64,000 bases of DNA from an uncultured Lachnospiraceae bacterium (GTDB lineage: Bacteria; Bacillota; Clostridia; Lachnospirales; Lachnospiraceae). The position numbers were made by a program, and so were the translations under genes. Location: assembly GCA_947086895.1 (NCBI GenBank), contig CAMUAR010000001.1:1-64000 (forward strand), given 5' to 3'. This document shows, in pieces, positions 2,074 through 58,323 of the stretch (positions are counted from its first letter, which is position 1; every line of letters begins with the position of its first letter). The notes under the pieces were generated by a model, which was not told the origin of the DNA, searched no databases, and saw only the letters and a list, made by a program, of their open reading frames with translations.

Positions 2074-3252
2074 TTAATGATGGAACAGGCGAATACCAGT
2101 AAACGCCATTACCATGCCGTATTTATCGCAGCAGTCAATCACCGCATCATCACGGATGGAGCCGCCTGGCTGCGCAATATATTTTACGCCGCTTTTATAC
2201 GCGCGCTCCACATTGTCCGAGAATGGGAAAAATGCGTCGGAACCACAAGTTACATTAGAAAGCCCATCCAGCCATGCGCGCTTTTCCTCACGAGTAAATA
2301 CTGCTGGCTTTTCCTGAAAGATTTTTTCCCATGCGCCATCGGCAAGTACATCTTCATATTCATCGCCCATGTAAATATCAATCGCATTATCGCGGTCTGC
2401 GCGCCCAAGCCCATCAAGAAACTTTAATCCCATCACCTGCGGAGACTGACGCAGATACCAATTGTCCGCCTTCTGACCAGCAAGTCTTGTACAGTGAATG
2501 CGCGACTGCTGCCCTGCTCCAATGCCAATCGCCTGACCATCCTTCACATAGCAGACAGAATTTGATTGCGTATACTTTAATGTAATCAGGGAAATCTTCA
2601 TATCCATCCGTGCGTTTTCCGGCAGTTCTTTATTCTTTGTCACAATATTAGAAAGCAGTTCATTGCCGCAATCTAATTCATTTCTGCCCTGTTCAAACGT
2701 AATTCCATACACTTGCTTTTGCTCAAGATTTGCTGGAATGTACGACGCATCCATCTGAATAACATTGTAATTGCCCTTCTTTTTGGATTTCAAAATCTCC
2801 AGTGCCTCCGGTTCATACCCCGGCGCAATAACCCCGTCGGAAACCTCGCGCTTAATTAAATTTGCTGTACATACATCGCACACATCAGACAGAGCGATAA
2901 AATCACCGTAGGAGGACATACGATCTGCGCCTCTTGCTCTGGCGTAAGCGCTTGCAAGCGGTGTCAGCTCGCCGAGATCATCCACCCAATAAATTTTCGC
3001 AAGTGTATCGCTAAGCGGCAGACCAACCGCTGCACCTGCCGGAGAAACATGTTTAAACGATGCTGCCGCCGGAAGTCCCGTCGCCTGCTTTAATTCTTTT
3101 ACCAGCTGCCATCCATTAAAAGCGTCCAGAAAATTGATATATCCCGGTCTGCCGTTCAGCACAGTTACAGGAAGCTCGCTTCCATCTTCCATAAAAATCC
3201 TGGAAGGTTTCTGATTTGGATTGCATCCGTACTTTAACTGAATTTCATTCAT
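2074..3252 (-). CDS. purH: Stand-alone AICAR formyltransferase (PurH-type domain)
   Basis: A 392-residue protein matching the formyltransferase half of PurH: it transfers a formyl group from 10-formyl-tetrahydrofolate to AICAR, the penultimate step of purine synthesis. Visible family features include the [11 protein letters not shown] segment with the Lys-His pair and the C-terminal PGGSIRD. The N-terminal IMP cyclohydrolase domain of bifunctional PurH is absent; that activity is supplied by the purO-type gene just upstream in the same unit. Start ATG 3252 is preceded by AGAGGA; the longer in-frame start lacks a ribosome site. A pseudoknot-like leader (3262-3324) overlaps the Shine-Dalgarno region. 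Confidence 0.93.
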
Positions 3253-3261
3253 AAATAAATA

Positions 3262-3324
3262 TCCTCTTTTCTGCGCTGCTTTTTTATATTCCAAGTTTGT
3301 GGATGCAGCGCAGACACAAACTTG
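3262..3324 (-). promoter_or_regulatory. Pseudoknot-type leader overlapping the purH ribosome site
   Basis: On the minus strand a perfect 10 bp stem CAAGTTTGTG/CACAAACTTG (arms 3315-3324 and 3292-3301 in plus coordinates) encloses a 13-base loop. Ten loop bases (TCTGCGCTGC) are perfectly complementary to GCAGCGCAGA at 3270-3279, two bases before the AGAGGA site (3262-3267). This is an A-B-A'-B' arrangement that could hide or expose the ribosome site. Related leaders precede the DUF4317 gene and the GNAT pseudogene. The rest of the gap to purO (3325-3483) shows only AT-rich sequence. Confidence 0.6.
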
Positions 3325-3483
3325 TGAGCAAAAAATTTTTTAGATCTTTCACTCTTTCCCCTTTTTTATTTGCCAACTGTCTTTTTACTATGGTATTTCT
3401 ACTTGTCCGTTTCGTTTTATTCTTCCGCTGTTTTATTGTCTTACGCGATAACACATTTTAAAAATGTTTTAAAATCGCTTTCT

Positions 3484-4479: not shown

Positions 4480-4615
4480 AAAAAAAGATCGCCCAGGCAC
4501 GCAAATAATGCATTCGCCCAGGCGGTCGGCATATCGTTTTTGTACGTTCCCCTCAGGTTACCCTGCTACAGCCCAGCAAACATTCCGGTCTCTGTTTTTC
4601 CGCCAGTCACGTACA
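4480..4615 (-). promoter_or_regulatory. ZTP (pfl) riboswitch with intrinsic terminator
   Basis: On the minus strand P1 is formed by TGTACG (4610-4615) and CGTACA (4541-4546). Just inside lies CGTGACTGGCGG, the hallmark 5' block of the ZTP/ZMP riboswitch, and GGGGAACG precedes the closing strand. The 3' block CCGCCTGGGC (4516-4525) follows. Its bases also pair with GCCTGGGCG (4490-4498) to form a terminator hairpin ending in a run of Ts (4480-4486). These riboswitches sense AICAR nucleotides (ZMP/ZTP) and turn on folate and purine genes. Here it precedes purO and the AICAR formyltransferase, which fits. Bases 4616-4813 hold no gene. Confidence 0.85.
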
Positions 4616-4813
4616 CTTTGCGTCTCTGTTCACAAAGTTTTCCCTAAATTACAAAAAACTTGTATCCCATAATGCGCTTTTTTAATTAGGAACATAAAAG
4701 CAGCCACAACCATTTACAAACTGCTTTAAAATATGCTATCCTGAAATTTATCTTACACGAAACTTTTGGAAATTGCAAGGTGTTTTTCCACAAAATACAG
4801 AATTTTACAAAAA

Positions 4814-10410: not shown

Positions 10411-10904
10411 AATTTAAGTGTACATCGAAAAAGAGCTTTTCGCAATCTTTTCTTCAATATATTTTATACAATAATAACATTCTAAATTTCCTTGGAATCA
10501 ACACGGTTTTCAATTTATATATATTGTTTTATTTCAGCGGACAGCACTTACAAGCAAGACAGTAAGGTCACAGAAAAAAGAGCATTTCCACAATATTATT
10601 TGACATTCTTCATGCTCAGGGGCAGGAAATTTCTGCTGCTCTTAAATCCTGCCGCACACCATGAAAATCTCTGTGCTTTAAGAAATCTTTCTCCAAAAAC
10701 CGTATAATAAAAAATTGCCGAAAATCCATTGATTTTACAAGATTCGCTGTGCCATGAAAAAAACTAAAAATCTTCTCTGGAAAAAATACACAATATAAAG
10801 TATAATTAGGAGAACCTTTCTCTTTCTTATTTTCCTCCTTCATTGAAACTTGACTTTAAAAAACAATTGAGATAAGCAAAAGATTAATTCAGTAAATGAA
10901 AAAT
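10411..10904. other. Intergenic region between divergent units
   Basis: AT-rich sequence without a convincing gene. A minus-strand 75-codon open frame (10616-10843) has no good ribosome site or recognisable motif. A TATAAT at about 10802 could serve the DUF4317 gene but has no clear -35 partner. Confidence 0.5.
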
Positions 10905-10910
10905 AAGGGG

Positions 10911-10984
10911 TTGTGTCTGCACGCTGCAAAACCTGCGGCTTGACACAAATAATTTATGCGGGAAAAGCAACGCAGAAACGAGGA
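10911..10984 (+). promoter_or_regulatory. Pseudoknot-type leader of the DUF4317 gene
   Basis: Stem TTGTGTC (10911-10917) pairs with GACACAA (10942-10948). The loop carries TCTGC and GCTGC blocks that pair imperfectly with GCAACGCAGA (10967-10976), four bases before the GAGGA site (10980-10984). The sequence is clearly related to the leaders at 3262-3324 and 16771-16837, including the linker ending in ATGCG..AAA. The loop is longer here and appears expanded. Confidence 0.5.
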
Positions 10985-10989
10985 TTTTT

Positions 10990-16764: not shown

Positions 16765-16770
16765 AATTTT

Positions 16771-16935
16771 CTCCATTTCTTCGCTGCCTTTTGCGCATAA
16801 CGAGTTTGTGTCAAGCAACGCGCAGACACAAATCTCGCGATTGAAAATTTTAATTTTCAATCTTATACCTGTATATATCGCAGGCAAGCCTTCGATACTA
16901 CAAATAAAGAGTTTGAAAATATTTTTCTTTCAAAC
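16771..16935 (-). repeat. Composite leader: 5' module shared with copy D, 3' pseudoknot module
   Basis: The gene-proximal part (16771-16837) has stem TTTGTGTC/GACACAAA extended by CGAG/CTCG across one mismatch. Its loop contains CGTTGC, which pairs with GCAGCG (16782-16787) upstream of the GGAG site. The distal part (16838-16935) has a TTGAAAATT/AATTTTCAA hairpin, a TATCG...CGATA hairpin and a GTTTGAAA/TTTCAAAC hairpin, and aligns with 20885-20985 upstream of another GNAT gene. The junction suggests modular exchange. 16936-17021 holds nothing recognisable. Confidence 0.65.
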
Positions 16936-47205: not shown

Positions 47206-47518
47206 ACTAATAATCATACCTCCCTTTTCATAATTTACAGACTTTGCGCTGTAAGCACTTATGGAACTCTTTTCTTTTTTCTCTATCCCAAAGCATTTTA
47301 TGCCAAACGACATTGTGCGGTCAATAGATTTTTTGACATTTTGGCACAAACAATCAAGAATGCATGTTTCATACATTCCATAATGATACAAAGAAAGTAT
47401 AACCTTTTTGCGGCGAGATTGCAATTGCGGCATGAAGGATTTTGTGATATTTTTATAGAAAAGTATTATAAACAAAGCCGACTCACCCTACAATATTTTA
47501 GAGAAAGGAAACTGTATT

Positions 47519-52840: not shown

Positions 52841-52950
52841 AATCATCCCCCATGCCAAAACGCTTTCGCACCAGCATACAAACTGAATATCCAGCTCGGC
52901 TCCACAATTTAAATTTGTGACGCCCCGCCGCAAAACCAAAATCAAATCGC

Positions 52951-53622: not shown

Positions 53623-53698
53623 AAAAAACCTCATTTCTGCATTGCTTTTTGTATGTGTAATTCAACGCTTCCCACAGAAAACTTCTTTCAAACACACT

Positions 53699-57470: not shown

Positions 57471-57573
57471 AAAATAATTCGCATCAATAAATTTTTTGTT
57501 TGTACCAAAAAAACGGAGATTTAATAAAAAAGAATACTGTAAAAAATAATGCGGATGCACTTATTTTTTATAA

Positions 57574-57682
57574 GGCTGATTTGTGCCGAGAACGTCACAA
57601 ATCAGCCCGGATCCGACAAGAAAAACTGCATTCGCAGCGTTTTTTTGCGGTTTCTCAAACAGAAACGTTCTCGGAATGGAGG
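57574..57682 (+). promoter_or_regulatory. Pseudoknot-type leader of the LUD gene
   Basis: A perfect 12 bp stem (GGCTGATTTGTG 57574-57585 with 57596-57607) encloses a 10-base loop CCGAGAACGT. All 10 loop bases are complementary to ACGTTCTCGG (57665-57674), three bases before the GGAGG site (57678-57682). Between lies CTGC-ATTC-GCAG followed by a T7 run, which could act as a weak terminator. Same topology as the purH leader but with unrelated loop sequence. Confidence 0.65.
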
Positions 57683-57687
57683 ATACT

Positions 57688-58323
57688 ATGTCACCCAAAA
57701 AACAATACTACAAAAATCTTGCCGACAGTATTATAGAAAAGCTCAACCTGCGCGGCATGGAAGGTTATTACTGCAATGAAAAAGCGGAAGCTCTTTCCAT
57801 GGCAAAACAGTTTCTCACGCCTGGATGTTTTGTCTCGTTCGGCGGTTCTGTGACACTGGCGGAAATCGGACTGTCAGACGAACTAAAAAAATCGGATTAT
57901 ACTCTTTACGACCGTACTTCTGTTAATACTCCAGAAGAAAAATCTGCTATGTATGCAAAAATCGTTACATCAGATTATTATTTTATGAGTTCAAATGCAA
58001 TTACATTAAACGGCGAGCTGATCAATATTGACGGCTACGGAAACCGTGTTGCCTGTTTGATTACTGGTCCAAAACAGGTTATTATCGTCGCTGGAATGAA
58101 TAAGATTGTCACAGATGTTGAGAGCGGAATCGCGCGTGTCCGCAATATGGCTGCGCCGCCAAATACCGTGCGTCTCGGCAAAAAAACGCCGTGCGCCGAA
58201 CTTGGCCGCTGTGCAGACTGCCTTACGCCGGATTGTATCTGCTGCCAAATTGTTATCACACGCAAGTCCATTATTCCAAACCGCATTAAAGTGATTCTTG
58301 TCGGGGAAGAATTAGGGTATTAG
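57688..58323 (+). CDS. LUD (DUF162) domain protein, lactate-utilisation-like
   Basis: A 211-residue single-domain protein of the LutC/YkgG-like family: FVSFGGSVTLAEIGLSDELK, YDRTSVNTPEEK, SSNAITLNGELINIDGYGNR and a Cys-rich end (CAELGRCADCLTPDCICC). In full systems LUD proteins with Fe-S partners oxidise lactate, but no lutA/lutB genes are adjacent. The added cysteines could hold a metal or cluster. Start 57688 follows GGAGGATACT. Its 3' end overlaps the Fic remnant on the other strand. Confidence 0.85.
   Translation: MSPKKQYYKNLADSIIEKLNLRGMEGYYCNEKAEALSMAKQFLTPGCFVSFGGSVTLAEIGLSDELKKSDYTLYDRTSVNTPEEKSAMYAKIVTSDYYFMSSNAITLNGELINIDGYGNRVACLITGPKQVIIVAGMNKIVTDVESGIARVRNMAAPPNTVRLGKKTPCAELGRCADCLTPDCICCQIVITRKSIIPNRIKVILVGEELGY

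Follow-up and report, generated by a model that had tools for sequence, protein, structure and literature searches.

In the 64,000-nt stretch of DNA that was analysed as a whole (the window), the gene of a LUD-domain protein is preceded by a leader in which GGCTGATTTGTG and CACAAATCAGCC form a perfect 12-bp stem, P1, around the 10-nt loop CCGAGAACGT (Table 1). All 10 loop bases find a Watson–Crick match in a downstream segment, ACGTTCTCGG (B′), which is followed by AAT, the Shine–Dalgarno (SD) motif GGAGG and, at 57688, the ATG of the LUD gene. The initial annotation of this DNA had described the stem, the loop and its 10-of-10 complement three bases 5′ of GGAGG, and reading of the sequence confirmed each of them. 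A stem of at least 12 bp combined with a 10-nt loop match occurred in 0 of 3000 dinucleotide shuffles, and a weaker combination (a stem of 8 and a loop match of 8) in 3 of 3000. The leader also folded 5.4 sd better than its shuffles, even when the pseudoknot was not counted. Pairing of all 10 loop bases without a linker is geometrically strained, and fewer pairs may form simultaneously. The run of seven T residues from which a transcriptional choice had been proposed is present in the 3′ arm of a further hairpin, P2, but the proposal itself did not hold: the run is not conserved, and other copies carry TTCTCTT at this position, which is still paired in P2. A transcription terminator at the run was rejected on the same ground.

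Table 1. Positions in the window of the parts of the LUD leader and of the related copies
Feature	Coordinates	Strand	Basis
P0, 5′-terminal palindromic hairpin of the element	57540–57570	+	MFE fold
P1 5′ arm, GGCTGATTTGTG	57574–57585	+	Sequence; family stem UUUGUG/CACAAA, extension covaries
Loop B, CCGAGAACGT, pairs with B′ in the pseudoknot helix (5′ strand)	57586–57595	+	Sequence and covariation
P1 3′ arm, CACAAATCAGCC	57596–57607	+	Sequence and covariation
P2 hairpin, with the T7 run in its 3′ arm	57613–57650	+	Covarying helix 3 of model R1
B′, ACGTTCTCGG, pairs with loop B in the pseudoknot helix (3′ strand)	57665–57674	+	Sequence and covariation
SD2 (GGAGG), SD borne by the element	57678–57682	+	Sequence; conserved in the family
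LUD-domain gene, passive host of the copy	57688–58323	+	Pfam LUD_dom, 158 bits
Class III copy before purH	3250–3326	−	73 bits with R2
Parts of the purH copy: P1 arms; loop; B′; SD	3315–3324 and 3292–3301; 3302–3314; 3270–3279; 3263–3266	−	
Class II copy; a 414-aa ORF follows directly	10904–10989	+	R2 search
Class II copy followed merely by a short ORF	16765–16838	−	Reading of the copy, R2 search
Class I-like copy, diverged; the pyruvate kinase gene follows	47279–47357	−	26.2 bits, E = 0.0165
Class I copy, diverged; an ORF follows directly	52846–52941	−	37.7 bits
Class II-like copy, weak; an ORF follows directly	53623–53687	−	31.7 bits

The LUD leader is one of many similar sequences in this genome. 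The pattern TTTGTG-N6-16-CACAAA matched 49 sites, compared with 3 for a reversed control. The second leader that the initial annotation had pointed to, at 3262–3324, proved to be real and akin to the LUD leader; it lies on the minus strand, before purH. Covariance models, which had been proposed as a check, were built for class I (R1) and for classes II and III (R2). R1 matched 37 sites of the genome at E≤0.003 and R2 matched 78 at E≤0.001; the two lists share no site, giving about 115 relatives. Among the copies examined, 34/37 (R1) and 40/43 (R2) lay in the sense orientation directly before an ORF. Among the loops of class I (the LUD type) are CCGAGAACGT and CCGRAGCGY, class II pairs the loop TCTGCGCGTTGCTTGA with AAGCAACGCAG, and class III (the purH type) pairs TCTGCGCTGCATC with GCAGCGCAGA; common to the three is a loop-complementary segment, then an SD, then the start codon. 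Near-identical copies of the LUD leader precede pheS, pheT, ispF and others, copies of the sister classes precede gyrB, dnaK and metG, and further hosts are ispG, coaD, truA, the homoserine dehydrogenase gene, argG-, metK- and mnmA-like genes, flgL and lipoprotein genes, all of these names being assigned from protein starts and LUD alone being confirmed by Pfam. A ZMP/ZTP riboswitch (51 bits) was observed at 4509–4620 on the minus strand, approximately 1 kb upstream of purH with its own class III leader. At another locus, L057, a T-box leader (1468–1715; 84.8 bits, below the gathering cut-off) lies 5′ of pheS with a class I element (1945–2054) between them, so that two leaders seem to be stacked on this pheS mRNA.

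The host genes bear directly on the proposal that the LUD leader senses a ligand related to redox or lactate metabolism. A compact, conserved pseudoknot beside the SD is found in several riboswitch classes, and the related leader on purH would suit a riboswitch with a LUD, redox or purine ligand that acts on the downstream gene via its SD. However, none of the 29 LUD homologue loci has the element before LUD, the roughly 115 relatives in one genome, near-identical copies of the LUD leader among them, stand before unrelated genes, and the sets of genes differ from species to species. Neither the element in the window nor its copies from other genomes matched Rfam, where no family reached its gathering cut-off, in agreement with the earlier remark that the leader is no named riboswitch. 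We therefore consider a ligand riboswitch highly improbable. Kinship with the TwoAYGGAY motif was also rejected, because it was seen in one copy only, at 22 bits against a cut-off of 43, and did not recur.

Class I copies consist, in order, of the hairpins P0, P1 and P2 (the last being shorter in some), B′ and SD2, the P1 loop pairing in cis with B′ just 5′ of SD2, and we take the structured element to be about 140–150 nt long. A long P0 palindrome is present in 75 of the 126 copies collected. R1 was built from 46 sequences obtained by pattern scanning of many Lachnospirales genomes. In the R1 alignment 98% of the loop × B′ cells are paired, a figure that is in part ascertainment, as is the invariance of UUUGUG/CACAAA, because both the pattern and a filter on the loop match decided which sequences were admitted. 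Less affected by this bias are P2, the P1 extension and the weak, diverged matches. Across the whole structure, 154 double-change cells were counted, compared with 52 in shuffles; P2, the P1 extension and the helix between the loop and the pre-SD segment all covary, and sliding the partners against each other abolished the signal. Within this genome, diverged copies with a 9-nt loop form 8.21 pairs with their own B′ and 7.51 with the B′ of other copies, a difference reached in 0 of 2000 permutations. A member of the same genus combines TCTGAGCGA/TCGCTCAGA with the stem TTTGTT/AACAAA, and another genus has the matched pair CCGCAGGCGC/GCGTCTGCGG. Since the loop and the pre-SD segment change jointly both within and between genomes, the pseudoknot is under selection. 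These comparisons of sequences thus support well a cis pseudoknot, and with it the H-type pseudoknot adjoining the SD that had been put forward for the LUD leader.

Folds of this kind might act at the DNA level instead, as single-strand hairpins recognised in transposition, with no role in RNA. P0 and P1 are palindromic, and the dispersal of the element and the occurrence of tandem copies fit this possibility as well. Selection for movement only, however, would not be expected to preserve the loop–B′ match in diverged, old copies, which keep it by private paired changes (CTGAAGCGT/ACGCTTCAG and CCGGAGTGT/GTACTCCGG), and we regard a function confined to DNA as quite unlikely.

The sequences upstream of the element point to where it came to lie. 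Of the 75 copies that have a clear P0 and whose upstream flanks are unrelated, 55 carry an SD-like motif (SD1) between −13 and −3 relative to P0, the background in windows further upstream being about 10 of 75 (p = 4e-32); for classes II and III, the upstream SD was present in 9 of 25, compared with 1–2. Because of this enrichment just upstream of P0, young copies have one SD on either side, and SD1 looks like the original SD of the host gene. At the LUD copy SD1 is not clearly recognisable, which could reflect decay. In the genus, the orthologues of ispG, coaD and pheS show a normal SD followed by ATG at the place taken by an element in the present genome. In the sister family, two sites occupied by elements in genome G066, one between fabD and fabG and one 5′ of a MATE transporter gene, read as an uninterrupted SD-ATG in the sibling G304 (...AAGGAGATCTAAAGC-ATG and ...CAGGAGGCGTAAC-ATG), the junctions having been read by eye from aligned sequences. 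In G201, the second unit of a tandem lies directly behind the SD of the first. Taken from one genome per species, these comparisons provide good support for an insertion site between the SD and the start codon. The approximate ends of the element are P0 and the SD2 region, and the SD on either side resembles a direct repeat, although a constant duplication could not be defined.

R1 matched 38 of the 250 genomes of the family that were sampled, some with dozens of copies, this being an undercount owing to the stricter filters used in the large R1 searches. It also matched genomes in a single sister family within the order, and had no match in the 397 other genomes drawn from across the phylum. 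Genome G137 holds 49 copies, and the seven that were read are near-identical. Many related copies at non-orthologous sites, together with empty sites in relatives, are what defines a MITE- or REP-like repeat, and it is solely from this distribution and the empty sites that we infer movement. Neither a transposase nor terminal repeats or a target duplication could be identified for the element. Mobilisation by the IS200/IS605 type (REP, PATE) was rejected, since Y1 transposases do not track the element: Y1_Tnp matches were absent from the copy carriers G003, G137, G201, G141, G238, G260, G224 and G103. A search of a plasmid collection returned no match to the element. A phage origin was likewise rejected. 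On viral contigs, 70 of the 71 pattern matches represent one coding sequence, and the three matches in the phage collection are unannotated faecal contigs, the two that were opened being marked unverified. Copies of the element do occur on faecal contigs deposited as 'Bacteriophage sp.' (L428, 1705–1809; L429, 2501–2582); L429 looks like a bacterial chromosome because its copy precedes an enolase gene. Several contigs of G304 (for example C32, C1, C5, C6 and C134) start 20–29 nt before a copy, suggesting that near-identical copies cause assemblies to break.

The same distribution weighs on the idea of a global cis operator, by which one trans-acting protein, sRNA or signal would govern a large translational regulon. 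In its favour, the UUUGUG/CACAAA core close to the SD is constant in many copies, and housekeeping genes are frequent among the hosts. On the other hand, the sets of host genes look arbitrary and differ between related species, two members of the genus have no class I copies, although class II/III copies are present in them, and the loops fit their own B′ rather than a common partner. We consider a global operator unlikely.

As a whole, these results are best explained by a dispersed, MITE-like structured element of Lachnospirales that lies between the SD and the start codon, supplies a new SD beside its pseudoknot and probably serves as a gate or relay; we favour this explanation and think it more likely right than wrong. 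The stronger version, in which a new class of bacterial mobile elements lives specifically between the SD and the start codon and rebuilds the ribosome-binding site behind a pseudoknot, so that translation of the host gene continues, coupled to the old SD or independent of it, seems to us evenly balanced between right and wrong. In the favoured explanation, the element would insert or recombine between the SD and the start codon, SD2 would keep the host gene expressed, and the folds would matter in the RNA. The element may affect translation as an SD1-coupled gate, a docking element or a block to RNase J, and a translational gate or relay on SD2 would be its most likely mode. Ribosomal 30S subunits recruited at SD1 would start at an NTG that opens P0, and the resulting ribosomes would unwind P0 and P1, so shifting B′ between a state held by the loop and one free to fold onto SD2; use of SD2 would thereby follow use of the native SD. 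In each class, the copies whose P0 is clear do have an NTG at its start. The pre-SD strand of class I can pair with SD2, at −6.0 kcal/mol in the LUD leader and −3.4 to −4.9 in shorter forms, and the duplex of B′ with the loop is worth about −16 kcal/mol. Since the pseudoknot would prevent this B′–SD2 hairpin, it may open SD2 in class I rather than clamp it, contrary to the first reading. Class III has no such hairpin. A B′–SD2 hairpin as a universal off state was rejected, being confined to class I, and no one switching scheme fits all classes.

The leader ORF that the relay would translate varies in frame and stop, and none was found in 53 of the 126 copies; this inconstancy weakens the relay, and the encoded peptide is probably of no importance. 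A conserved leader peptide such as VKNKLDSLFFTRLFVPERHK was rejected, as the frame is open in some families and lost in others and belongs to no NCBIfam or Pfam family. In many copies with a 9-nt loop (for example L170 and L187), P0 and P1 together constitute a 20-codon ORF (M/VKNKLDSLFFTRLFVPERHK), which gene callers may annotate as a protein.

Known structured leaders and repeats resemble the element in part. The small dispersed palindromic repeats and MITEs of bacteria, REP/BIME, ERIC, BOX and Correia, are likewise short, non-coding, multi-copy and folded, with species-specific subfamilies. Unlike them, almost every copy of the element lies in the sense orientation between an SD and a start codon and has an SD of its own and a covarying pseudoknot, and neither terminal inverted repeats nor a cognate transposase was found for it. 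The S15 (rpsO) leader, an autoregulatory pseudoknotted mRNA leader bound by its own product, shares the H-type pseudoknot that touches the ribosome-binding site, but leaders of this type are single, whereas the element is a gene-independent family. Translational attenuators of the erm and cat type have a leader peptide and a structure before SD2. The element resembles them in having SD1, a short ORF and a structure before SD2, but its leader ORF is conserved neither in frame nor in length nor in sequence. Viral exoribonuclease-resistant RNAs block bacterial RNase J1 in vitro (PMC5760640), and by analogy the element could be a 5′ stability element of mRNA whose ring-like pseudoknot stops the 5′–3′ exonuclease RNase J. 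Its gene-independent use and leader position agree with such a role, as does a hairpin loop that pairs with a downstream strand and could form a mechanical block. Yet no homology or other sequence relation to the viral RNAs (PMC5760640) was seen, the element sits before an SD, and the spacing of exactly 3 nt between B′ and the SD would lack an explanation; we give this alternative little credence.

A description of the family was not found in open-access PMC papers, and with respect to Rfam and this literature the element represents a previously unlisted kind of repeat. The LUD leader also illustrates that, when a striking leader is met at a single gene, the genome should be searched as a whole before a riboswitch is called. 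If the favoured explanation is true, more than 100 natural, matched pseudoknots would be available for studying how structure adjacent to the SD affects initiation. The ribosome-binding site from which approximately 3% of the genes in some gut Lachnospiraceae are translated would then have come with an inserted RNA element. This would be a novel means by which a repeat can insert where a gene is most sensitive and yet be tolerated, as well as a new source of leader regulation.
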